A DNA stretch of 56,288 nt from Mycobacteriales bacterium (GTDB taxonomy: Bacteria > Actinomycetota > Actinomycetes > JAFAQI01), in the NCBI GenBank assembly GCA_035504215.1, contig DATJSI010000090.1, positions 1 to 56,288 of the forward strand, given 5' to 3'. A model generated the notes under the pieces. It saw nothing but the letters and a program-made list of their open reading frames with translations, ran no database searches and was not told the origin of the DNA. How positions within the stretch are numbered: the stretch's first letter is position 1; each line of letters starts with the position of its first letter. Both the position numbers and the translations under genes were made by a program. Shown here one piece after another: positions 26,043 to 45,516 of this stretch.

Positions 26043-28676
26043 TCAGGCCGCAGCGGCCGGAGCCGGGGCATCGAACGTGATCGTGAGCTCGCCGTTCGAG
26101 AGCTCGACGCGAATCGTCGAGCCGTCGGGGACGTTGCCCTGTAGTAGGGCTCGACCGATGCGTGTTTCGACCTCGCGCGCGATGAACCGCCGCAATGGCC
26201 TGGCGCCGAAGACGGGATCGAAGCCTTGATTGGCGATGAAGCGCTGCGCGGCCTCCGTGACCTCGAGTGTCATTCGCCTCTCGTCGAGCCTGGCTCGGAG
26301 GTCGTTGAACATGAGGTCGACGATGCGTTCGATCTCGCCCAGCGTGAGCGGCTTGAACAGCACGATCTCGTCGACGCGATTGAGGAACTCTGGACGGAAG
26401 TGGTTTCGCATCGCACCCATCACGGTGTCGCGGACGTCCGGCTTGATCTCGCCGGCTGCGGACACGCCTTCGATGAGGTACTGCGAGCCGATGTTCGAGG
26501 TCATGATGATAACGGTGTTGCGGAAGTCGACTGTGCGGCCCTGCGAGTCGGTGAGACGCCCGTCGTCGAGCACCTGCAGCAACGTGTTGAAGACGTCGGT
26601 GTGGGCCTTCTCGATCTCGTCGAAGAGCACCACAGAGTAAGGCTTCCGGCGCACTGCCTCCGTCAGCTGACCGCCCTCGTCGTACCCGACGTAACCGGGC
26701 GGGGCGCCGACGAGGCGGCTGACGGTGTGCCGCTCCTGGTATTCGCTCATGTCGATGCGGACCATGTTGTCCTCGGCGTCGAAGAGCGTCGCTGCAAGTG
26801 TCTTGGCGAGCTCGGTCTTGCCGACACCGGTTGGGCCGAGGAAGATGAACGACCCGACGGGTCGGCGCGGGTCTTTGATACCGGAACGCGCCCGGATGAT
26901 CGCGTCCGCGACGAGCTGCACTGCCTCGTCCTGGCCCACGACGCGCTCGTGGAGGATCTGGTCGAGTCGCAGCAGCTTCTCGCGCTCACCCTCCTGGAGC
27001 CGACTCACCGGGATCCCGGTCCATCGCGACACGATTGCCGCGATCTCATCCTCGGTGACAACCTCGCGGAGCAGTCGCCTGCCGCCGAGGCGTTCGTCCA
27101 GCCGCCGCTCCTCCGCCTGCAGCTGCCGCTCGAGCTCGGGCAGGCGACTGTGCCGGAGCTCCGCCGCCTGGTTGAGGTCGTAGTTGCGTTCTGCCCGCTC
27201 GGCCTCCTGTCGAACGCTTTCGAGCTCCTGACGCAGTTCCTGCACCCGCCGCAGAGCCTGCCGTTCGGTCTCCCACTGTGCACGCATCGCGTCGGCCTCC
27301 GCCCGCAGGTCGGCGAGTTCCTTACGCAGCTCCTCGAGTCGAGCCTTGCTAGCGGCATCCGTCTCCTTCGCCAGCGCGGTCTCCTCGATCTCAAGCCGCA
27401 TCACGCGTCGGGTGAGCTCATCCAGGTCTGCCGGCATGGAGTCGATCTCGGTTCGGAGCATGGCGCAGGCCTCGTCGACGAGGTCGATCGCCTTGTCGGG
27501 CAGGAACCTGTCGGAGATGTAGCGATAGCTCAGCACGACTGAAGAGACCAACGCGCTGTCCTGAATCTTTACGCCGTGGAACACCTCGAACCGCTCCCGC
27601 AGCCCGCGCAGGATTGAGATTGCGTCTTCCACGGACGGCTCGTCGACGAGGACCGGTTGGAAGCGGCGCTCGAGGGCGGCGTCCTTTTCGACGTGTTTGC
27701 GGTACTCATCGACCGTCGTCGCACCGATCATGTGCAGCTCACCGCGGGCGAGCATCGGCTTGAGCATGTTGCCGGCGTCCATCGCGCCTTCCGGCCCACC
27801 GCCCGCACCGACGACCGTGTGCAGTTCGTCAACGAACAGCAGGATCCGACCGTCGGCGGCCTTCACCTCGTTGAGCACACTCTTGAGCCGCTCCTCGAAC
27901 TCGCCGCGATACTTCGCGCCTGCGACCAGCGATCCCATGTCCAGCGCGAAGATCGTCCTGTCGCGCAGTCCCTCCGGCACGTCGCCGTTCGCGACCCGCT
28001 GCGCCAGGCCCTCGACGATCGCGGTCTTGCCGACACCGGGGTCGCCGACGAGGACCGGGTTGTTCTTCGTCTTGCGGGAGAGGATCTGCACCACCCGGCG
28101 GATCTCGGAGTCCCGCCCGATGACCGGATCGATCTTGCCGGCCCTCGCGTCAGCGACCAGGTCGCGTCCGTACTTCTCCAACGCCTCGTAGGTCACTTCG
28201 GGCATCGCCGAGGTGACCCGCTGGTTCCCGCGGATCGAGGTGAGAGCCTGCAGGAACCGATCCCTGGTCACGCCCTGTTCGCGCAGCGCGCGGCCGGCGC
28301 CGGTTTCCGCTCCTTCTTCGACCAGCGCGATCAGCAGGTGCTCCACTGAGACGTACTCGTCCTTGAGTCGCTTCGCCTCGCGGTCAGCCGTGTCGAGCAA
28401 TCGGCTCAGGCGCTGGGTCACGTACACGTGGCCGGGTGCCGCGCCGGGCCCGGTCACCCGTGGCCGGCGTGACAGCTCCGCCTCGGTCGCCGCCTGCAAC
28501 TGCTCGACGTCTGCCCCGGCCTGCAGGAGCAGCCGCGGCGCGAGCCCGTTCGCCTGATCGAGCAACGCCAGCAGCAGATGCTCGCCGTCGACCTCGGTGT
28601 GACCGAACCGCAGCGCTTTCGTCTGCGCGTCGTGCAGCGCCTCCTGCGACTTCTGCGTGAGTCGATTCATGTCCAT
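26043..28676 (-). CDS. clpB: ClpB disaggregase (Hsp100)
   Basis: The 877-residue protein has a Clp N-domain (about 1-145), AAA1 with Walker A GDPGVGKT near 207, a long coiled-coil middle domain (about 410-530) and AAA2 with Walker A GPTGVGKT near 611. It ends with the C-terminal small domain ([18 protein letters not shown]). With DnaK, DnaJ and GrpE it resolubilises protein aggregates by threading polypeptides through its ring. ATG 28676 starts the canonical [14 protein letters not shown]. The gene overlaps the cbpM stop by ten bases, so it belongs to the dnaK operon. Confidence 0.97.
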
Positions 28677-28987
28677 GACGGGCCTCCGCGGGACTGGTGG
28701 ACTCGGCGGGCTCGGGTAGTCGCCTCGAGCTCGGCGATGCGGTCGAGCAGGTCGACGACGAGACCGAGGGCGGCGTAGTTGAGCGAGAATCCGGCCCGCA
28801 ACCTGCGAAGTCTCGCCGCGACGAGGACCTGTTCGGGGGTGAACCACAGGTCGACGGATGACGACGACGCGGCGTCGAGAAGGCCCAGGTCCACCAGCTG
28901 CAGGACGAACTCCGGGTGGCAGCCGGTGGCGCGAGCGAACGCGTCAAGGTCGAGTCGCAACGGCCGGGTCAATGCGTAGGTCGTCAT
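28667..28987 (-). CDS. Chaperone modulator CbpM-like MerR-type protein
   Basis: The 106-residue protein has a short MerR-like HTH (LDLDAFARATGCHPEFVLQL, then LVDLGLLDA) and a helical tail (NYAALGLVVDLLDRIAELEA), the layout of CbpM. CbpM binds the J-domain of CbpA-type cochaperones and inhibits them. It sits where HspR, the MerR-type repressor, would be in a standard actinobacterial dnaK operon. It overlaps dnaJ by four bases (ATGA) and clpB by ten. Whether it modulates DnaJ or represses the operon like HspR is undecided; the short tail favours CbpM. Confidence 0.82.
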   Translation of the reverse strand: MTTYALTRPLRLDLDAFARATGCHPEFVLQLVDLGLLDAASSSSVDLWFTPEQVLVAARLRRLRAGFSLNYAALGLVVDLLDRIAELEATTRARRVHQSRGGPSWT

Positions 28988-29925
28988 CGCCGACTCCGCG
29001 GGTCGAAGGTCGAAGCGGTGGCGAGCTCTTCGAACAGCCGGCGCTCGTCCGCCGAGAGTCGCTTCGGAACCAGGATCTTTGCCTCCGCATAGAGGTCGCC
29101 AGGTTCGCCGCGTGGGTTCGGCAGCCCTCGCCCGCGTAGTCGCAACCGGCGCCCGCACGACGTGCCCGAAGGCACCTTGACCTTCGCCTCGCCACCGGGC
29201 GTGTCGACTGCGACGGAGGTACCCAACGCGGCCTCCCAGGGCGTCAGCGGCGCGTCGACGTAGATGTTGCGTCCCTCGACGCGGTACTGCGGATGCGGCG
29301 CCAGCCGTACCACGAGGTAAAGATCTCCAGCAGCGGCCCCGCCGCTGCCCTGGCCGCCCTGACCGGCGAGCCGAATCCGTTGGCCGTCCGTGACGCCGGC
29401 GGGGATCGTCACCTCGACGGTTCGCGGGCCCTCGGGACCGCTGATGCTCAGCTTCCGGCGTCCCCCGTGGTAAGCCTCCTCCACGCTGACCTCGATCTCG
29501 GTCTCTTGGTCGGCCCCGCGGACGGTGCCCCAGCCGCGCCGGCCGCGGCGCCCGAAGATCCCGCTGAGGAGGTCGTCGATGTCGACGTCGCCGCCGAACC
29601 GAATGTCCTCGAAACCGTCTGCTGCGCCCCGCGACGTTCCGGGCTGCGGTCCACGCTGCGCCCGCGCCCAGGTGTCGGGATCGACTCCTTCGGGTACGCG
29701 GCGGAAGTCGGGGCCGAAGGCGTCGTACCTGCGTCGTGCGTCCGGATCGGACAGGACGTCGTAGGCCTCAGAGATCTCCTTGAACCGTTCCTCCGCCGCT
29801 GGGTCCTTGTTGACGTCCGGGTGGAACTGCCGGGCGAGTTTGCGGTACGTCCGCTGGATCTGCTTCGCATCGGCGTTGCGCGGGACACCGAGAACGTCGT
29901 AGAAGTCACGGGTCGTAGTGGCCAT
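28984..29925 (-). CDS. dnaJ: DnaJ/CbpA-type cochaperone lacking the zinc finger
   Basis: The 313-residue protein has a J-domain with HPD at residues 35-37, then a Gly-rich linker and two C-terminal substrate-binding domains (IPAGVTDGQRIRLAGQGG; PLTPWEAALGTSVAV). The four CxxCxGxG zinc repeats of type I DnaJ are absent, so this is a CbpA-like type II J-protein. It stimulates DnaK ATPase and delivers clients. It shares one base with the grpE stop and is followed by its probable modulator CbpM. Length and layout match CbpA. Confidence 0.94.
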   Translation of the reverse strand: MATTTRDFYDVLGVPRNADAKQIQRTYRKLARQFHPDVNKDPAAEERFKEISEAYDVLSDPDARRRYDAFGPDFRRVPEGVDPDTWARAQRGPQPGTSRGAADGFEDIRFGGDVDIDDLLSGIFGRRGRRGWGTVRGADQETEIEVSVEEAYHGGRRKLSISGPEGPRTVEVTIPAGVTDGQRIRLAGQGGQGSGGAAAGDLYLVVRLAPHPQYRVEGRNIYVDAPLTPWEAALGTSVAVDTPGGEAKVKVPSGTSCGRRLRLRGRGLPNPRGEPGDLYAEAKILVPKRLSADERRLFEELATASTFDPRSRR

Positions 29926-30443
29926 CAGCCCGGCCTCGAAGCCACCACCACGGAAGCCGGCCGCAGCTGTCGCGCGTCGTCGCCGTAACCGGGCCGGACG
30001 ACGTGCACGACCGTGCCCTCCGGAACCTCGTCGGTCGGCACCGTGCTCACCGCCTCGTGGTGCGTCGGGTCGAAGCTCTGGCCGACGTCGTCCCGGCGCG
30101 GGTAGCCGAGCCGCTCAAGCAGGTCGACGGCGAGGGAGAGCACGGCCTGGACGCCCGGCACGATCGCCGCCGGGTCCGCGTCAGCGTGCTGCAACGCGAG
30201 CTCGAGGTTGTCAACCACGGGTAACCACTGCGCGGTGAGCCGAGCACGATCCTCGGCCAAGGCACGTTGGGTGTCGCGCGCAGTTCGCCTTCGCAGGTTG
30301 TCGAGGTCGGCGAGAGCGCGTCGCCACTTGTCGTCGAGGTCGGCGACGCGCGCTCGCAGTTCAGCCACCTCCGGGCTGGACTGGTCAGTCTGGGCTTCGA
30401 TGCTCGGTGGCTGCTGTTCGGTCGGTAGCTGGTTGCCGGTCAT
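29925..30443 (-). CDS. grpE: GrpE nucleotide exchange factor
   Basis: The 172-residue protein has the long N-terminal coiled coil (VAELRARVADLDDKWRRALA, then DLDNLRRRTARDTQRA) and the C-terminal beta domain with PRRDDVGQSFDPTHHEAVST and VVRPGYGDDARQLRPASVVV. It releases ADP from DnaK. Start ATG 30443 is five bases after dnaK. The conserved 'VxxPGY' segment is intact. Confidence 0.95.
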   Translation of the reverse strand: MTGNQLPTEQQPPSIEAQTDQSSPEVAELRARVADLDDKWRRALADLDNLRRRTARDTQRALAEDRARLTAQWLPVVDNLELALQHADADPAAIVPGVQAVLSLAVDLLERLGYPRRDDVGQSFDPTHHEAVSTVPTDEVPEGTVVHVVRPGYGDDARQLRPASVVVASRPG

Positions 30444-30448
30444 CGGCT

Positions 30449-32341
30449 CTAGCTGGTGGTGAACTCGGCGTCGATGACGTCGTCGTCCTCGGCCCGCGCC
30501 TCACCGCCCGAAGGACCCGCGCCGTCCGCCTCGTCGGGATAGGGCTCGCGTCCGGATGCGCCGATGCTCTGGTACACCTGCTGGAGCTCCGAGGTGAGCG
30601 AGCGCAACCGGTCGAGTGGTGCTTCGTCCTGCACCGCCTGCCGGGCATCCTGGATCAACATCTCCGCCCGCGCCTTCTCATTCGTCGGGACGGCATCCCC
30701 AAGCTCCCCTAGTCGGCGTTCCACCTGGTATGCCGCCGCATCCAGCGCGTTGCGGGCGTCGACCTCCTGCCGGATCCGCTCATCCTCCGAGCGGTGCTGC
30801 TCGGCGTCGCGGACCATCCGCTCGACCTCGGTCTTGTCGAGATTGCTGCTCTCGCTGACCGTGATGCTCTGCTCAGCCCCAGTGTCCTTGTCACGAGCGG
30901 AGACGTGGAGGATGCCGTTTGCGTCGATGTCGAACGTGACCTCGATCTGAGGTTCCCCGCGTGGAGCCGGGCGGATGTTCTCGAGCCGGAACCTCCCGAG
31001 CACGCGGTTGTCGGCAGCTCGCTCGCGCTCTCCCTGCAAGATGACGACATCGACGGCCGTCTGGTTGTCCTCCGCGGTGCTGAACGTCTCGGTGCGCCGA
31101 GCGGGGATGGTCGTGTTCCGCTCGATTACCTTCGTCATGACCCCGCCGAGCGTCTCGATCCCGAGCGACAGCGGCGTGACGTCGAGGAGTACGACGTCCT
31201 TGACCTCGCCCTTCAGCACTCCCGCCTGGATCGCCGCACCGATCGCGACGACCTCGTCGGGGTTGACCGACATGTTTGGGTCCTTGCCACCGGTGAGCCG
31301 GCGTACGACGTCCTGCACCGCCGGGATGCGCGTCGACCCGCCGACGAGGATGACCTCGTCGATGTCGTTGGCCGTCAGCTTGGCGTCGGCCATCGCCTGC
31401 CGGACCGGTTCCATCGTGCGCTCGACGAGGTCCGAGGTGATCTTCTCGAATGTCGATCGCATTAGCGTCGTGTTGAGGTGCTGCGGCCCAGACGCGTCGG
31501 CTGTGATGAATGGCAGGTTGATCGTGGTCTGCGTGACGGAGGACAGCTCGACCTTCGCCTTCTCCGCCGCCTCGAACAGCCGCTGCAAGCCCTGTGGGTC
31601 CTTGCGCAGGTCGATGCCGTTGCTCTTCTGGAACTCATCGGCGAGGTAGTCGACGATGCGCCGATCGAAGTCGTCCCCGCCGAGGTGGGTATCGCCTGAG
31701 GTCGACCGGACCTCCACAACCCCGTCACCAACGTCGAGGATGCTCACGTCGAACGTTCCGCCACCCAGGTCGAACACGAGCACGGTCTCGTGCTCACGCT
31801 TGTCCAGCCCGTATGCCAGCGCTGCCGCGGTCGGTTCGTTGATGATGCGGAGAACCTCGAGCCCGGCGATCCGGCCGGCATCCTTCGTGGCCTGCCGTTG
31901 CGCGTCGTTGAAGTAGGCCGGAACCGTAATGACCACCTCGGTGACCTTCTCACCCAACTGCTTCGACGCGTCGTCCGCGAGCTTGCGCAGCACCATGGCG
32001 GAGATCTCTTCGGGGGCATACAGCTTGTCGCGGATCTTGAACCTCGCGGCCCCGTCCGGCCCCTGCGCGACCTCGAAAGTCACGGCGTTCATCTCGCTCG
32101 TGACCTCGTCGTACCTGCGCCCGATGAAGCGTTTGGCCGAGTAGATCGTGCCCTTCGGGTTGAGGATCGCTTGCCGGCGGGCGAGTTGTCCGACGAGGCG
32201 GTCACCCCGTTCGGTGAACGCGACGACGGAGGGCGTTGTCCGTGAACCCTCCGCGTTCGGGAGCACCCTTGCCTCGCCGTTCTCGACGGCGGCGATCACC
32301 GAGTTGGTGGTTCCGAGGTCGATGCCTGCTGCTTTGGCCAT
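30449..32341 (-). CDS. dnaK: Chaperone DnaK (Hsp70)
   Basis: The 630-residue protein has the ATPase domain with [20 protein letters not shown], the phosphate loop [15 protein letters not shown] and [12 protein letters not shown]. The substrate-binding domain ([20 protein letters not shown]) and a lid follow, ending in an acidic DDDVIDAEF tail. ATG 32341 gives the canonical start; the frame extends upstream without support. It heads the operon dnaK-grpE-dnaJ-cbpM-clpB-trx-propeller. Compared with housekeeping DnaK the sequence reads as a second, accessory copy ([12 protein letters not shown]), but that needs comparison to the rest of the genome. Confidence 0.96.
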
Positions 32342-32419
32342 ACCGCCCACCCTGCGGACATCGACCCGTGTCCGCATCCCCCGGGTTGGTAGGTCCGGAT
32401 ACAGCAACAACCAATACGT
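32342..32419. promoter_or_regulatory. Divergent promoter region of dnaK and the peroxiredoxin gene
   Basis: This 78-base gap must hold the promoters of both gene sets. It contains a loose inverted pair GTTGGT/AACCAAT. I see no HAIR (CTTGAGT-N7-ACTCAAG) and no CIRCE palindrome, so the usual HspR or HrcA control is not evident. Confidence 0.5.
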
Positions 32420-32944
32420 GTGGTGTGCGCGGAAGCGGTCAGCGTTGCACTGTCCTCGGCCACCAGCGTGCTGCCGAATGGCGCGCAGGCGCCCGACTTC
32501 TCGCTGCCGAGCACGCCTGACCAGAAGGTCACCCTTTCCGACTTCCGTGGTCAGCCGGTTGTGCTTGCGTTCTATCCGGCCGACTGGAGCCCGGTCTGCG
32601 GCGACGAGATGGTCCTGTTCCAGGAGGTGCTTCCTGAGATCCGCCGGTTCAACGCCGAGTTGCTCGGCATCTCGGTCGATGGAGCGTGGTGCCATTTCGC
32701 GTTTGCGAAGGACCGGAAGCTGACCTATCCGCTGTTGGCGGACTTCGAGCCGAAAGGTGAGGTGTCGCGCGCGTACGGCGCATATCGGGAGAGCGAGGGG
32801 ACGAGCGCGCGCGCACTGTTCGTACTCGACCGTAACGGTGTTGTCGACTGGAGTTACGTCGCGCCGGTCGGCGTGAACCCCGGCGCCGACGGGGTTCTGC
32901 GCGCGCTCGAGTCGCTGTCCCAGCGAGCGAAGGTGATGGCATGA
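32420..32944 (+). CDS. Peroxiredoxin (AhpC/TSA family, AhpE/PrxQ-like)
   Basis: The 174-residue protein has a thioredoxin fold with the peroxidatic cysteine at residue 60 in [14 protein letters not shown], preceded by [14 protein letters not shown] second Cys near 96 (DGAWCHF) could resolve the sulfenic acid, though the spacing is unusual for PrxQ. It reduces peroxides using thiols, probably thioredoxin. GTG 32420 starts the longest plausible form; a slightly shorter start cannot be excluded. Its stop overlaps the DsbA-like gene by four bases, so the two are coupled. Confidence 0.9.
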
Positions 32945-37432: not shown

Positions 37433-38623
37433 ATGAGGGAGATGAGCGTGGCTGAGCAGCGCTATCAGGCGGTTCTCGCGGTGATCGCGGAGGGCCGCAC
37501 GATTAAGGAAGTCGCGGCGCAGTGGCGGGTGAGCCGGCAGACGGTTCACAGCTGGCTGGCGCGGTATGAGCAGGCCGGGTTGGAGGGGTTGCCGGACCGG
37601 TCGCATCGGCCGGTGTCGTGTCCGCATCAGATGCCGGCGGTGGTGGAGGCGGCGGTGTTGGAGCTGCGCCGGTCGCGTCCGTATTGGGGAGCGCGACGGA
37701 TCACTCTCGAGCTTGCCCGGCGCAAGCTCGCGGATCCGGTGCCGTCGGAGTCCGCGGTCTATCGGGCGTTGGTGCGGGCGGGGGTGATCGAACCGGTGCG
37801 CCGTCATCAACGCTGCGAGCATTGGCGGCGGTGGGAGCGCGGCGTGGCGAACGAGTTGTGGCAGATGGATGTCGTGGGTGGGTTCGCGCTCGCTGATGGG
37901 TCGACCGCGAAGGCGTTGACCGGGATTGATGATCATTCACGGTTCTGCGTGTCGGCGCGGCTGATGCCCAAGGAGCGGACGCAGGCGGTCTGTGACGGGC
38001 TGGCGGCGGCGATGCGCAGCTACGGGGTGCCGGAGCAGATCCTGACCGATAACGGGAGGGTGTTTACCGGCCGGTTCGCCTCGCCGCCGGTGGAGGTGCT
38101 CTTCGACCGGATCTGCCGGGAGAACGGGGTCGAGCATCTTCTGACTGCACCCAGATCACCGACCACGACCGGGAAGGTGGAGCGGTTCCACCGCACGCTG
38201 CGGGTCGAGTTCGACACCACCCAGGTGTTCACGACGCTCAAGGTCGCGCAGCAGGCACTGGATGAGTGGGTGGACTACTACAACACCGAACGTGGTCATT
38301 CCTCGATCGGTGACCTCACCCCAGCCAGCCGGTTCCATCACCCCGGCGGCGCGACACCGGGCGGGACCCGGGTCCCGGTCGAGCACCGCCCCGACCGCGG
38401 CGGTGAGCAGTGGGTCTCACGCAAGGTCGCACCGAACGGGCTGGTCTGCGTGTCCTGGCAGCAGGTCTCGGTCGGCAAGCATTGGGCCGGCTCCCGCTGC
38501 GATGTCCTGGTCACCGACCGGGTGCTGCAATTCTGGGTCGACAACCAACTCCTGAAGACCGTCGCTCGGACCAGCACCGGCGATGTCCGCAAGAAACGAG
38601 CCCAGGCCAGCAAGACGACATAA
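37433..38623 (+). CDS. IS481-like transposase (DDE, rve core)
   Basis: The 396-residue protein starts with an HTH (EGRTIKEVAAQWRVSRQTVH, then SWLARYEQAGLEGL). The integrase core follows with catalytic D146 (WQMDVVGG), D206 (ILTDNG) and E250 (GKVERFH). The C-terminal part (YYNTERGHSSIGDLTPASRF) and a beta-rich tail complete it. The frame is intact, so the element may be active. ATG 37433 lacks a ribosome site; GTG 37448, about five bases after GAGGGAGA, is a realistic alternative. It cuts and joins element ends through the repeated terminal sites. Confidence 0.93.
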   Translation: MREMSVAEQRYQAVLAVIAEGRTIKEVAAQWRVSRQTVHSWLARYEQAGLEGLPDRSHRPVSCPHQMPAVVEAAVLELRRSRPYWGARRITLELARRKLADPVPSESAVYRALVRAGVIEPVRRHQRCEHWRRWERGVANELWQMDVVGGFALADGSTAKALTGIDDHSRFCVSARLMPKERTQAVCDGLAAAMRSYGVPEQILTDNGRVFTGRFASPPVEVLFDRICRENGVEHLLTAPRSPTTTGKVERFHRTLRVEFDTTQVFTTLKVAQQALDEWVDYYNTERGHSSIGDLTPASRFHHPGGATPGGTRVPVEHRPDRGGEQWVSRKVAPNGLVCVSWQQVSVGKHWAGSRCDVLVTDRVLQFWVDNQLLKTVARTSTGDVRKKRAQASKTT

Positions 38624-41451: not shown

Positions 41452-41877
41452 CTAGGAGCTTGCTGCCGCCTCGGAGCGGCGGAACCGCGCGCACATACCG
41501 AGCAGCAACGCTTTAGCGATGGAAGGCTCCTCGTCGAGCAGCGGCCGGAAGTCCCAGGACGTGAGCGCAACGGTCGTCATCGGGGTGTCGACCGTCACCG
41601 TCGCCGACCGGGGCTGGCCGTCGATCATCGAGATCTCGCCGAAGTAGTCACCGGGGCCGAGCTTGTCCCGGGCTTGGCCGCGGATGTCCACGGTGGCTGT
41701 GCCCTCGAGGATCAGATGGAAGGCCACGCCCTCCTGTCCCTCCGTGGTCAGCTGCTTGCCGGCGTCGTGATGAACGGTGCGCGTGGCTTCGGCCACTCGG
41801 TTCAGCGCGCGGCGGTTGAGTTGTCCGAACAGGTCGGTCGAACTGAGCGCCTCGACGACCGCGGGATCCGGTGCCAT
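41452..41877 (-). CDS. Stand-alone cyclic-nucleotide-binding domain protein
   Basis: The 141-residue protein is one cNMP-binding beta-barrel: TDLFGQLNRRALNRVAEATR at the start, LTTEGQEGVAFHLILEGTAT, the phosphate-binding cassette GPGDYFGEISMIDGQPRSAT and a C-terminal helix LLLGMCARFRRSE. The cassette keeps G-E and R-S, so cAMP or a related ligand is possible. No HTH or enzyme domain is attached. ATG 41877 starts the domain. It is divergent from the GAF-protease-Crp operon and resembles the sensor half of the Crp protein there. Confidence 0.9.
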   Translation of the reverse strand: MAPDPAVVEALSSTDLFGQLNRRALNRVAEATRTVHHDAGKQLTTEGQEGVAFHLILEGTATVDIRGQARDKLGPGDYFGEISMIDGQPRSATVTVDTPMTTVALTSWDFRPLLDEEPSIAKALLLGMCARFRRSEAAASS

Positions 41878-41998
41878 GTCTGCTCCTCGCGAGGAATGGT
41901 TCTCGAACTCTAGCGGCCGATCCCGCCGCGTGCGCAAGATCGGCGGAGCAGACGGATCGGTGGCGAGCGGCGTGCGGCACGCACATAATGAGCCCGCT

Positions 41999-42751
41999 AT
42001 GACGACACCCGAGGACCTGCTCGCCGAGTTGGGGCGGGTTGCCACCGATCTCGCGCCGGCCGTGCGACCGGTCGGCAGCGAAGACCTGCTGCGTGCTTTG
42101 ACCGACACTGCCCGTCAGCTCTTCGGTGCTGCCGCGTGCTCGCTCGCCCTGCTCAGCGACGACGAGTCGGAGTTGGTCTACACGACCGCCGCCGGGGAGG
42201 GCGCCGATGACATCACCGGGATGCGGATGCCGGTGAGCGAAGGCGTGGCGGGCTGGGTTGTGCAGTCGGGCCAGCCGATCGCGATCGGCGACCTCGCGAA
42301 CGACCCGCGTTTCTCGCTGCAGACTGCCCAACGAACGGGATACGTGCCGCAGGCCATCCTCGCCGTACCCGTCAACTCGCCGCGTCGCACGTTGGGCGTG
42401 CTGACCCTGCTGGACCGGGATGCGCGCCGCCCGGGCGCCGAGCACGACATGACGCTGCTGAGCCTGTTCGCCGATCAGGCGGCGATCGCGCTGGAAAGCG
42501 TGCTGGCGTTCGGCGACCTCGGCCGCGTGCTGCTGCAGAGCGTTGCGGTGGCCGCGGGCGACGGCACCGATCTGGCCGGTGCCGCCGACAGGAGCGCCGC
42601 AGAGCTCACCGGCGCCGATGCCGACCTGGCTGGACTCGCGGCCGCCTTCGCGACCCTGTCCCGGCGGGGAGCCGCGGAGCGCCGGCTCGCCCACGACGTG
42701 ATGCACAGCATCGCGACCTACGCCGAGCGACGGTCCCCACGGACCCGCTGA
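41999..42751 (+). CDS. GAF domain protein, first gene of the protease cassette
   Basis: The 250-residue protein has a GAF domain at about 25-165 (LLRALTDTARQLFGAAACSL, then GMRMPVSEGVAGWVVQSGQP and GYVPQAILAVPVNSPRRTLG). A long Ala-rich helical tail ends in ERRLAHDVMHSIATYAERR. GAF binds cyclic nucleotides, heme or other small molecules; the ligand is unknown. No output domain is present. The protease gene follows by 44 bases and may even start earlier, so the two are probably cotranslated. The helical tail could dock onto the protease. Confidence 0.88.
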   Translation: MTTPEDLLAELGRVATDLAPAVRPVGSEDLLRALTDTARQLFGAAACSLALLSDDESELVYTTAAGEGADDITGMRMPVSEGVAGWVVQSGQPIAIGDLANDPRFSLQTAQRTGYVPQAILAVPVNSPRRTLGVLTLLDRDARRPGAEHDMTLLSLFADQAAIALESVLAFGDLGRVLLQSVAVAAGDGTDLAGAADRSAAELTGADADLAGLAAAFATLSRRGAAERRLAHDVMHSIATYAERRSPRTR

Positions 42752-42795
42752 GACCGGCCTGGTCCGAGGCGTTCGCGCCGGAGGTCCTGCGGCCG

Positions 42796-43563
42796 GTGCT
42801 GCGGATCGACCAGCCGATCACGAAGGACTGGGCGTGGGGTGATGCCACCGGAGCCGGGGTGAGCGTTGCCGTCGTCGACAGCGGGATCGACGCTGCGCAT
42901 CCGGCCGTCGGTTCGGTCGAGGACGCGGTCGCCCTGACCTGGGACCGCGACGAGGAGGAGGTGCAGTACGCGCCCGGGCCGCACGACGACCTCTACGGCC
43001 ACGGCACCGCCTGTGCGGGGATCATCCGGCGGGTCGCTCCGCAGGCTCGGCTGGTCTCGGTTCGAGTACTCGGCGAGCGACTGACCGGCAAGGGGTTGGT
43101 CTTTGCCGCCGGCCTGCGCTGGGCCATCGACCATGGCGCTCGCGTCGTCAACCTGTCGTTGAGCACCGGGCGCGAGGACTACTTCGGATTGTTCCACGAG
43201 ATCGCCGATGCCGCTGCGTTCGCCGGCGTCGTGCTGGTGTGTGCCACCAACAACGTCCCCGCTCCGACCTATCCCAGCCAGTTCTCCTCGGTCGTCTCGG
43301 TCGCGGCGCACGACGGCACGGATCCGTTCTCGCTCGATGCAAATCCTTCCCCGCCGGTCGACTTCGGCGCACCCGGCATCGATCTCGAGGTGCCGTGGCT
43401 CGGCGGTCGCACGATCGTGAGCACCGGCAACTCCTTCGCTGCACCGCACATCACGGGTCTGGTGGCCAGGATCCTCAGCAAGCACCCGCAGTTGACGCCG
43501 TACGACGTGAAGACCGTCCTGCGCGCGATTGCGTCGAACAGCGAGCCGATGACCGATGGCTGA
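42796..43563 (+). CDS. Cytosolic subtilisin-like serine protease (S8 family), minimal catalytic domain
   Basis: The 255-residue protein keeps the catalytic triad D28 (VAVVDSGID), H69 (YGHGTACAG) and S213 (STGNSFAAPHI), plus the oxyanion Asn near 152 (CATNN). There is no signal peptide and no I9 propeptide, so it is expected to stay in the cytosol and not to be auto-activated in the usual way. GTG 42796 is used, but the frame is open further upstream and a CTG at 42748 overlaps the GAF stop. The stop overlaps the crp-like gene by eight bases. Control by the GAF partner is inferred. Confidence 0.88.
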   Translation: MLRIDQPITKDWAWGDATGAGVSVAVVDSGIDAAHPAVGSVEDAVALTWDRDEEEVQYAPGPHDDLYGHGTACAGIIRRVAPQARLVSVRVLGERLTGKGLVFAAGLRWAIDHGARVVNLSLSTGREDYFGLFHEIADAAAFAGVVLVCATNNVPAPTYPSQFSSVVSVAAHDGTDPFSLDANPSPPVDFGAPGIDLEVPWLGGRTIVSTGNSFAAPHITGLVARILSKHPQLTPYDVKTVLRAIASNSEPMTDG

Positions 43564-44245
43564 GCAGGTGCCGGTCGATCAGCTGGCCGAGGTCTCGATG
43601 CTCTCCGAGCTGCCGCGTGACGTGCTCGAGCAGGTGGTCGCGGCGTCGCGGCATCGCAGCTACCCCCGTGGCCAGGTGATGTTCAGCGCAGGCGACCCCA
43701 GCGACACCCTCGTCATCGTGTTGTCGGGGCGGATCAAGGTGTTACTCAGGTCGGCCGACGGAGGGGTGCTCACGCTCTCGGTGGTCGGCGCCGGAGGCTT
43801 GATCGGCGAGCTCAGCATGATCGACGGTGGCAGTCGGTCGGCGGACGCAGAGGTCCTCGAGGCGGTCGAGGTTCTGCTCGTCCCTGCAGCCGTCGTCGCG
43901 GATCTCCAACAGCGGTATCCCGCGGTGACGGCGGCGATGCTCAGGTCGGTGGCGGCCGGCTTCCGGCGGCTGACCGACGCGGTTGCGGACCTGGTGTTCC
44001 TCGACCTGCCGCGCCGGGTGGCCAAGCAGCTGTTGGACCAGCCACGCGACGCCGACGGCGTCGTGGATCTCGGGCTGAGCCAGAGCGAGCTGTCGCAGCA
44101 GGTAGCCGGGACTCGGCAGAGCGTCAACCAGGCATTGCGCGGATTCGAACGCCGCGGTTGGATTTACCTGCGCGGTCGCTTGGTCGTGCTTCGGGACCCG
44201 GTCGCGCTCGCCAATTTTGCCGGCGAAGAGGTGTCGGCAACTTGA
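43556..44245 (+). CDS. Crp/Fnr family transcriptional regulator
   Basis: The 229-residue protein has a cNMP-binding domain (GQVMFSAGDPSDTLVIVLSG, then GAGGLIGELSMIDGGSRSAD) and a C-terminal winged HTH (LGLSQSELSQQVAGTRQSVN, then QALRGFERRGWI). The cassette GELSMIDGGSRSA is close to that of cAMP-type sensors. It overlaps the protease gene by eight bases, so all three genes are one transcription unit. It could report on the same signal as the GAF protein and control the cassette or the stand-alone cNMP gene. Its operator is not identified. Confidence 0.92.
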   Translation: MAEQVPVDQLAEVSMLSELPRDVLEQVVAASRHRSYPRGQVMFSAGDPSDTLVIVLSGRIKVLLRSADGGVLTLSVVGAGGLIGELSMIDGGSRSADAEVLEAVEVLLVPAAVVADLQQRYPAVTAAMLRSVAAGFRRLTDAVADLVFLDLPRRVAKQLLDQPRDADGVVDLGLSQSELSQQVAGTRQSVNQALRGFERRGWIYLRGRLVVLRDPVALANFAGEEVSAT

Positions 44246-44284: not shown

Positions 44285-44313
44285 TGACCGGCACGCTGTG
44301 AAGCGTCCGGTCA
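44285..44313 (+). terminator. Strong hairpin with GTGA loop between crp-like and His-His-repeat genes
   Basis: TGACCGG-C-ACGCT (44285-44297) and AGCGT-CCGGTCA (44302-44313) form a 12-bp stem with one bulged C and a GTGA (GNRA-type) tetraloop. It may end the crp-like transcript or lie in the leader of the small repeat gene, whose start is 27 bases further on. Confidence 0.6.
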
Positions 44314-44340
44314 TCGGAACCGGGAGGCAGAGGAGTCGAC

Positions 44341-44598
44341 ATGACTGAGGACATCAACACCAGCGAGGACGAGACCAGCGGCCATCGGTTCCTCGCTCCG
44401 AGCGCCACCGACAACGACGACGTCGCCGGTCACCACCGGGAGCCCCCGGGTGCCACCGAGGACGACGATGTTGCGGGTCACCACCGGGAGCCCCCGGGCG
44501 CGACCGAGGACGACGACGTCGCGGGTCACCACCGGGAGCCTCCGGGCGCGACCGACGGCGACGACGACGTTGCGGGACACGTGCGGTTCCAGCCGTAG
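44341..44598 (+). CDS. Small acidic protein with tandem His-His repeats
   Basis: The 85-residue protein has three 16-residue repeats DDVAGHHREPPGATED from residue 26 to 73 and a partial fourth ending DDVAGHVRFQP. DNA units are 48 bases. The protein is strongly acidic, with three HH pairs spaced 16 residues apart, and has no hydrophobic core or signal. It could bind metal, act as a disordered spacer, or be a peptide precursor with leader residues 1-25; none is shown. GAGGAG lies six bases before ATG 44341. Two hairpins follow the stop. Confidence 0.75.
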   Translation: MTEDINTSEDETSGHRFLAPSATDNDDVAGHHREPPGATEDDDVAGHHREPPGATEDDDVAGHHREPPGATDGDDDVAGHVRFQP

Positions 44599-44605
44599 CG
44601 CAACC

Positions 44606-44639
44606 GCGGGCCGGCGCGCCTTCACACCGACCGGCCCGC
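44606..44639 (+). terminator. Hairpin terminator 1 after the repeat-protein gene
   Basis: GCGGGCCGG (44606-44614) and CCGGCCCGC (44631-44639) form a perfect 9-bp stem with a 16-base loop, starting seven bases after the stop codon. Confidence 0.6.
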
Positions 44640-44646
44640 ACGAGAT

Positions 44647-44678
44647 GGGCGGACCATGGGCTTGGCCCTGGTCCGCCC
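44647..44678 (+). terminator. Hairpin terminator 2 after the repeat-protein gene
   Basis: GGGCGGACCA-T-GGGC pairs with GCCC-TGGTCCGCCC, a 14-bp stem with one bulge and a short TTG-type loop. It is the strongest hairpin in the neighbourhood and separates the signalling cassette from the next gene. Confidence 0.7.
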
Positions 44679-44715
44679 ACCTGTGTCGCCACCGCACGGC
44701 CGTTAGGTTGTGGCG

Positions 44716-45516
44716 ATGCGCTTCGGCGTCTCGCTGCCGATCTTCGACCGGCTCGCCGACCCGGTCGTCCTCGCCGAGCTTGCCGCTGTCGCTGAGCAGG
44801 CCGGCTGGGACGGAGTGTTCGTCTGGGACCACCTGCAGTACCGGCCTCCGATCACCTCGGCCACCGATCCCTGGATCGCTCTAGCGGCGATGGCGGCCCG
44901 CACCGAGCGGGTATTGCTCGGGCCGATGGTCACACCGCTCGCCCGTCGAAGACCGCAGGTCGTGGCCCGCCAGCTGGTCGCGCTCGACCAGCTCGCCCGC
45001 GGCCGCGTGATCTTCGGGGCCGGTCTCGGCCTCGACGCCAGCGGTGAGGAGTTCAGCCGGTTCGGCGAACCCACCAATGTCCGGCTCCGCGCAGAGATGT
45101 TCGATGAGGCCCTGACCGTCCTCGGCGCCCTTCTCACCGGCGAGCCGGTGAACCATGAGGGCCGGCACTATGCCGCGAGCAATGTGCAGTTCCGTCCGCC
45201 GCCGTACCGCGACCGCATTCCGATCTGGATCGCCGCCCGGTGGCCGAACCGCGCACCGATGCGACGGGCGGCCCGGTTCGACGGAGTCAACGTGATCGAC
45301 CTCGGCGTCGAGCACCTGCCGGCCGTCCTTGCAACCATCGGCGCCGAGCGGCCGGAGGGTACGGCGGGGTTCGACGTGGTCGTCGGAGCCGGACCCGGCG
45401 CCGATCCCCGCCCGTGGGCGGACGCGGGCGCGACCTGGCTGCTAACCGGGTTCGATGCGTTCACGGTGACCGTCGCCGGTGTCGAGGCGGTGCTAAGGAA
45501 TGGCCCACGACGGTGA
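44716..45516 (+). CDS. LLM-class flavin-dependent oxidoreductase (luciferase-like)
   Basis: The 266-residue protein begins with MRFGVSLPIFDRLADPVVLA and continues EQAGWDGVFVWDHLQYRPPI, then TERVLLGPMVTPLARRRPQV and GRVIFGAGLGLDASGEEFSR. This is the luciferase-like monooxygenase TIM barrel, in the F420/FMN-dependent subgroup. The substrate cannot be read; the family reduces or oxygenates many compounds, in actinobacteria often with coenzyme F420. ATG 44716 is preferred over GTG 44710, since it starts the first strand. It is monocistronic between terminators. Confidence 0.92.
   Translation: MRFGVSLPIFDRLADPVVLAELAAVAEQAGWDGVFVWDHLQYRPPITSATDPWIALAAMAARTERVLLGPMVTPLARRRPQVVARQLVALDQLARGRVIFGAGLGLDASGEEFSRFGEPTNVRLRAEMFDEALTVLGALLTGEPVNHEGRHYAASNVQFRPPPYRDRIPIWIAARWPNRAPMRRAARFDGVNVIDLGVEHLPAVLATIGAERPEGTAGFDVVVGAGPGADPRPWADAGATWLLTGFDAFTVTVAGVEAVLRNGPRR

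Follow-up and report, generated by a model that had tools for sequence, protein, structure and literature searches.

What does an intracellular subtilisin cut, and what holds it in check, when its gene sits between those of a GAF-domain protein and a Crp/Fnr-type regulator? This question is raised by a 56,288-nucleotide contig of a Mycobacteriales bacterium (DATJSI010000090.1, assembly GCA_035504215.1; hereafter the window, i.e., the whole stretch of DNA that was analysed), in which a GAF–S8–Crp gene unit lies divergent from a gene for a stand-alone cyclic-nucleotide-binding (cNMP) domain. An original prediction, made from the sequence of the window, had read these four genes as a candidate signal-gated protease cassette. 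Here, we report that the unit includes a further short gene encoding a repeat peptide and that it is often accompanied by a transporter of the major facilitator superfamily (MFS) carrying a cNMP domain (MFS-cNMP). We consider it reasonably probable that these genes form a peptide maturation-and-export system, in which the cleavage, the ligand and the export would be those proposed below.

Conservation of the gene neighbourhood

An S8 profile scan of the GTDB species-level collection returned at least 528 relatives, of which the best 80 were fetched. With the loci from earlier searches included and the duplicates removed, 90 loci with an orthologous subtilisin were compared, 47 of them being well flanked (at least 3.5 kb on both sides). 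The hosts are mainly Actinomycetota and Chloroflexota, plus one Armatimonadetes metagenome-assembled genome (MAG) and one Spirochaetaceae MAG (possibly mis-binned). A GAF gene adjoins the S8 gene on the same strand in 84 of the 90 loci (75 upstream, 9 downstream) and is adjacent to it in 45 of the 47 well-flanked loci, while no GAF–S8 fusion was found among the S8 loci. Crp and cNMP genes cluster within 3 kb of S8 and are at background level beyond; at least one of them lies within 3.5 kb in 38/47 well-flanked loci when MFS fusions and long open reading frames (ORFs) are counted, and in 29/47 under a stricter count restricted to separate Crp or cNMP genes. Moreover, S8, Crp/cNMP and GAF are the only broad families to emerge from an all-against-all clustering of the neighbours. 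The linkage is far beyond chance: the four genes of the original prediction are confirmed as real and, given the adjacency of GAF and the enrichment of Crp/cNMP, so is the conservation of the gene set as a unit. A cyclase-like cluster of neighbours (13 loci, median distance 3.5 kb) was not counted as part of this unit because a direct query with a class III adenylate cyclase matched just 4 of the 90 loci.

The repeat peptide and its association with the protease

The short gene downstream of Crp encodes five tandem [DE]-[DE]-[VT]-x-G-H motifs, each followed by a divergent segment, according to the layout MTEDINTSEDETSGH-RFLAPSATDNDDVAGH-HREPPGATEDDDVAGH-HREPPGATEDDDVAGH-HREPPGATDGDDDVAGH-VRFQP, where the hyphens are predicted cleavage sites. 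The sequence DDVAGHHREPPGAT is present in three identical copies, and all the nucleotide differences among these copies and the last DDVAGH (7/7) fall at third codon positions, a pattern indicating selection at the protein level. In L005 and L006, the closest two relatives, a similarly built peptide occupies the corresponding position, but its spacers differ (DDDDVQGHTRLNHGAA and DEDDTQGHRASHAVP). The repeat-peptide gene belongs to the same unit as GAF–S8–Crp, so that the three-gene operon initially described was closed one gene too early.

Across the S8 loci, the density of [DE][DE][VT]x[GA]H motifs is 0.20–0.42 per kilobase-side in the first 2 kb around the protease gene and about zero beyond 5 kb, with 36 ORFs bearing at least two copies near S8, vs. 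1 after residue shuffling. A strict multi-motif or leader peptide is found within 4.5 kb of S8 in 43 of the 90 loci (26/47 when well flanked). These precursors contain 2 to 9 copies of a unit of 13–38 residues (most often 16), and the 34 peptides examined are acidic, devoid of cysteine and poor in aromatic residues. Between species, the motif alone is constant, whereas the segment that follows differs, yet is nearly identical among the units of one gene. In Anaerolineae precursors, repeated EVxxH units come after a helical leader that these peptides share (LxRLxKKLxALRATLxKDERxLLDxxxxG). Models from Pfam, NCBIfam and PADLOC yielded no meaningful match to the repeat peptides.

The association also holds at the genome level. 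Among the 394 genomes of a class-wide survey, 26 carry S8; a tandem-motif DNA pattern matched 19 genomes, of which seven contain a short in-frame tandem DD[VT]xGH gene (judged by eye), and all seven carry S8 (hypergeometric p = 2e-9, phylogeny ignored). Repeats of DDTAGH in an S8-negative genome (G284) were rejected as a different thing, being located inside a 714-aa ORF. Regarding the 199 Anaerolineae genomes, the leader occurs in six, S8 in five and both in four. The genome of the window itself has 21 further DNA matches to the motif, and none of the 18 inspected lies in a convincing short repeat gene.

Three motif peptides surround the protease in Naasia lichenicola (L032), and a second DDVEGH peptide gene (L192: 1480–1704, complement strand) exists in the genome G055 about 12 kb from the first one (L012), from which it follows that one protease may serve several precursors. 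Two loci encode long Ala-rich proteins on the opposite strand beside S8 (L010: 2327–3412, minus strand; L013: 295–1398, plus strand), with one N-terminal DDVEAHGL[RK] motif; both are possible substrates of this protease, large and with a single site.

An MFS transporter with a cNMP domain

In one relative, the gene immediately upstream of GAF encodes an MFS protein that has a cNMP domain at its C-terminus. More generally, an MFS gene lies within 5 kb of S8 in 34 of the 90 loci, mostly with a cNMP domain; the distances peak at 1–3 kb and are near background past 5 kb. This MFS-cNMP protein is found in about half of the well-flanked loci, and Pfam confirmed both MFS_3 (PF05977, above cut-off) and cNMP_binding in four distant loci (L194, L087, L042 and L031). 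Across the 394 genomes, 11 of the 21 with MFS-cNMP also carry S8, vs. 1.4 expected. On a Miltoncostaea plasmid (L003: 5654–7513), S8–GAF is followed by a motif-free 88-aa protein, a hydrolase of the metallo-beta-lactamase fold and an MFS protein with a cNMP-like match. In the genome of the window, the MFS-cNMP orthologue (L199: 6640–12067, contig C61) stands beside a class III adenylate-cyclase-like gene (judged by eye), a neighbour that would fit a control by cAMP.

Gene structure of the window and features of the protease

Pfam searches upheld all four domain calls of the original prediction (Table 1), and the stand-alone cNMP protein keeps the FGE...PRSATV phosphate-binding signature. By its fold and its D-H-S triad, the protease is a member of peptidase family S8: the AlphaFold model is a confident subtilisin (predicted local distance difference test, pLDDT, of 96) with an ordered N-terminus, and its best match in the PDB is subtilisin BPN' (Z 29.5). 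The triad (D28-H69-S213 when numbered from a GTG start, D44-H85-S229 from a CTG start) is intact and invariant across an alignment of 55 S8 orthologues, so that Pfam, alignment and model alike bear out the S8 protease with an intact triad that had been announced.

Table 1. Positions of the cluster genes and of the sequence elements of the repeat-peptide gene in the window.
Feature	Positions	Strand	Description
Stand-alone cNMP-domain protein	41452-41877	-	141 aa, divergent from operon; Pfam cNMP_binding PF00027, E 3e-13
GAF-domain protein	41999-42751	+	250 aa, C-terminal helical region; Pfam PF01590, E 4e-21
S8 subtilisin	42748-43563	+	About 271 aa, probable CTG start; Pfam PF00082, E 6e-30
Crp/Fnr-type regulator	43556-44245	+	Pfam cNMP_binding, E 7e-20, and HTH_Crp_2, E 3e-12
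Shine-Dalgarno-like GAGGAG	44330-44335	+	5 nt before peptide ATG; from sequence
Repeat precursor peptide	44341-44598	+	85 aa, five [DE][DE][VT]xGH units
Motif copy 1 (DETSGH)	44368-44385	+	From sequence
Motif copy 2 (DDVAGH)	44416-44433	+	From sequence
Motif copy 3 (DDVAGH)	44464-44481	+	From sequence
Motif copy 4 (DDVAGH)	44512-44529	+	From sequence
Motif copy 5 (DDVAGH)	44563-44580	+	From sequence

As anticipated, the product looks cytosolic and has no signal peptide; a conserved N-terminal extension had been missed. S8 homologues have in common an N-terminal segment [RKL]PAWSxxF (hereafter PAW), whose codons precede GTG 42796 in the window. Both the window and three relatives (L005, L006 and L007) have the same in-frame CTG, which shares bases with the stop codon of GAF (CTGA); in L010 and L008, in-frame GTG starts are found shortly before the PAW segment. 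These features make CTG 42748 the most likely start, with a 4-base overlap with GAF, and the 44-base gap once reported between the two genes probably arose because the first GTG had been chosen as the start; the 8-base overlap between S8 and Crp is as described before. In the intracellular subtilisin proteases (ISPs) of Bacillus, a short N-terminal extension can stand in for the propeptide domain (PMC6220982) and, by analogy, the PAW extension might perhaps hold S8 inactive.

Elsewhere in the window, inspection by eye revealed apparent ClpB, DnaJ, GrpE and DnaK chaperone genes (26043–32695, minus strand) and an apparent integrase/transposase with a helix-turn-helix (37433–38623, plus strand), about 3 kb off the cassette. 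Opposite the repeat-peptide gene, a frame also stays open for 173 codons (44311–44832, minus strand); it is probably a by-product of the high GC content that can mislead gene callers.

The GAF protein and its possible cyclic-nucleotide sensing

The GAF protein (AlphaFold model with a pLDDT of 92.5) is related to GAF domains proven to bind cAMP or cGMP. Its profile matches include CyaB2 (1ykd, E 5e-41) and cAMP-bound Lcd1 (5w10, E 3e-34), and cyclic-nucleotide GAFs (Lcd1, CyaB2, PDE2A and PDE10A) lead its closest solved structures by both profile and Foldseek searches (1ykd, 5w10, 2zmf and 1mc0 among the matches listed). On our reading, the NKFDE motif is only partly kept. GAF, Crp, the stand-alone cNMP protein and MFS-cNMP all come from families with cyclic-nucleotide-binding members, and the ligand of GAF would most likely be a cyclic nucleotide. 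The control by a small signal envisaged in the original prediction is thus plausible, and it is strengthened by the proximity of GAF to cyclic-nucleotide GAFs and by the cNMP domain of the exporter.

A model for peptide maturation and export

According to the model that we favour, the repeat peptide would be the substrate of the cytosolic subtilisin, with D-D-[VT]-x-[GA]-H occupying P6 to P1 and the cut following its His. The predicted products of the window precursor are three peptides of 16–17 residues beginning with HREPPGAT, plus RFLAPSATDNDDVAGH. Restraint of S8 would fall to the GAF partner (and perhaps to the PAW extension) and would be lifted by the binding of a small signal, most probably a cyclic nucleotide; Crp would tie expression to the same signal as GAF, and the MFS-cNMP protein would export the processed peptides. 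More tentatively, with GAF-gated cutting and a cNMP-bearing exporter, one second messenger might govern all three stages, from expression through maturation to export.

In general, subtilisins recognise their substrates chiefly through P1 and P4 and favour a small residue at P2, P3 being free. The motif has V/T at P4, mixed residues at P3 (E in 71%), G/A at P2 and H at P1, the conservation of H, G/A and V/T being partly by construction because the search pattern fixed those positions; motif-breaking units also occur (e.g., DDTQGQ in L048). With its small P2, its V/T at P4 and its free P3, the motif therefore fits the way in which subtilisins read substrates. As the motif is constant while the segments are lineage-specific and internally identical, the sequences suggest that the variable segments may be the products, e.g., lineage-specific signals or antagonists. 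Cleavage of a co-encoded peptide is known from QhpE, a cytosolic subtilisin whose operon also codes for the leader peptide that it cuts (PMC7876137). Altogether, the repeat peptide, the MFS-cNMP exporter and the N-terminal extension argue for peptide maturation and export, not for a suicide or defence protease.

Several observations weigh against this model. First, a strict-motif or leader peptide accompanies S8 in only 26 of the 47 well-flanked loci, and no recognisable one was found in Ktedonobacter, Mycolicibacterium, Thermomicrobiales and some more distant actinobacterial loci (L014 and L015). Second, the exporter is not in the window, its orthologue (59% identity) being located on another contig of the same genome. 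Third, other GAF proteins (the heme GAF DosS and PtsP) reach similar Z scores, and a fold match is no proof of a ligand, so that the latter is only what we infer. Finally, two leader peptides of Anaerolineae directly follow a Crp gene in S8-free genomes, which means that the peptide can exist without the protease and that Crp–peptide is a sub-unit of its own; both pairs lie near recA (L190: 4441–5502; L191: 8539–9645).

Alternative explanations

The latter pairs would also suit a regulatory peptide that either inhibits the subtilisin, as a decoy or by resembling a substrate, or works together with Crp; the same goes for the acidic, cysteine-free composition and for the inhibitory peptides that otherwise restrain intracellular subtilisins (PMC6220982). 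We nevertheless regard such a regulator as unlikely: two to nine copies of a constant motif separated by fast-diverging, homogenised spacers resemble precursor units and are not needed in an inhibitor, while the association with an exporter would be left unexplained. It is quite unlikely, too, that the peptide is chemically modified by enzymes encoded elsewhere, as in systems for ribosomally synthesised and post-translationally modified peptides (RiPPs). The leader and repeated cores of Anaerolineae would be in line with this, and S8 domains do act in RiPP pathways, once alongside an MFS permease (PMC13174530), but no modifying enzyme recurs among the clustered neighbours and the 34 peptides lack cysteine and have few aromatic residues.

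A regulated protease with general duties inside the cell, comparable to Bacillus ISP, with the peptide and exporter genes merely sharing its control by Crp, appears very improbable. It would account for the N-terminal extension, which recalls the ISP propeptide, for the presence of an intracellular serine protease (7y6m) among the matches and for the many loci without a recognisable peptide, yet not for the finding that peptide, MFS-cNMP and S8 are strongly linked in a way that depends on distance and occur together across genomes. Finally, a nucleotide-triggered defence protease, one of the possibilities raised in the original prediction, which would kill or arrest infected cells as in the cyclic-oligonucleotide-based (CBASS) or pyrimidine cyclase (Pycsar) antiphage systems, deserves hardly any credit, even though there are matches between the cNMP domains and the sensor portion of Pycsar TIR effectors, and between S8 and a generic PADLOC subtilase model: PADLOC gave only these generic overlaps, a scan of viral contigs returned matches of just 28–31% and no close relative, no CD-NTase, Pycsar cyclase or other nucleotide-signal synthase recurs among the neighbour clusters (with class III adenylate cyclase at only 4/90 loci), and the peptide and the exporter do not fit.

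Significance and comparison with known systems

The cluster occurs in many soil and water bacteria and appears undescribed. The original prediction knew of no described system with this set, and our literature search, outside of which most subscription journals lay, likewise found none. Tentatively, it might even represent a widespread and undescribed class of peptide signalling or antagonism, defined by an unmodified multicore precursor, a D-D-[VT]-x-[GA]-H code, a GAF-gated subtilisin and export by a cNMP transporter. If the genes do mature and export peptides, Actinomycetota and Chloroflexota that are common in soil would prove to have a further peptide family, one whose processing code can be read; orphan cytosolic subtilisins would, as a family, be assigned a function; and the cluster would offer an unusual case of cyclic nucleotides controlling both the maturation and the export of peptides. 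Cultured hosts (Naasia lichenicola, Nocardioides islandensis, Aeromicrobium terrae and Phycicoccus flavus) make testing easy.

With QhpE, its best NCBIfam match (NF049966, 120.6 bits, below the cut-off of 165), S8 shares a cytosolic location and, if the repeat peptide is cut by it, a small precursor substrate in the same operon, but the candidate substrate is here multi-repeat and the partners are GAF, Crp and MFS-cNMP; neither QhpC nor the radical SAM protein QhpD was found among the recurring neighbour clusters or recognised among the neighbouring ORFs of the window. An assignment to the mycosins of the type VII secretion system was rejected (TIGR03921, 119.1 bits vs. a cut-off of 278.75). 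Cyanobactin pathways (PatA/PatG) combine S8 proteases with a precursor in which several cores are flanked by repeated recognition motifs. The repeat peptide has this cyanobactin/RiPP precursor design (repeated cores and a constant recognition motif), a likeness of architecture read from sequence; however, S8 scores 26 bits vs. a cut-off of 421, and the cluster has neither macrocyclase domain nor modifying enzymes.

The Std RiPP cluster of Streptomyces also encodes an S8/S53 domain, which acts on the precursor, and an MFS permease along with that precursor (PMC13174530), but its S8 is fused to a carbamoyltransferase and accompanied by YcaO and MNIO enzymes, and no GAF or cNMP modules are described for it. 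Pycsar and CBASS share the cNMP-type sensor domains, whereas our cluster is not associated with viruses, lacks a linked cyclase and contains no killing domain such as TIR; neither a cyclase cluster nor an effector domain was found to recur at the loci. As in Bacillus ISPs (PMC6220982), there is no signal peptide, and a short conserved N-terminal extension may take the place of a propeptide domain. The extension carries PAW here, and the inhibitory one of ISPs LIPY/F. We know of no ISP operon with GAF, Crp and a repeat peptide, while the absence of ISP families among the fold matches listed for S8 carries no weight. Overall, we read the cluster as a variation on systems that co-encode a protease and its precursor peptide, wrapped in an unusual regulatory coat of cyclic-nucleotide modules.

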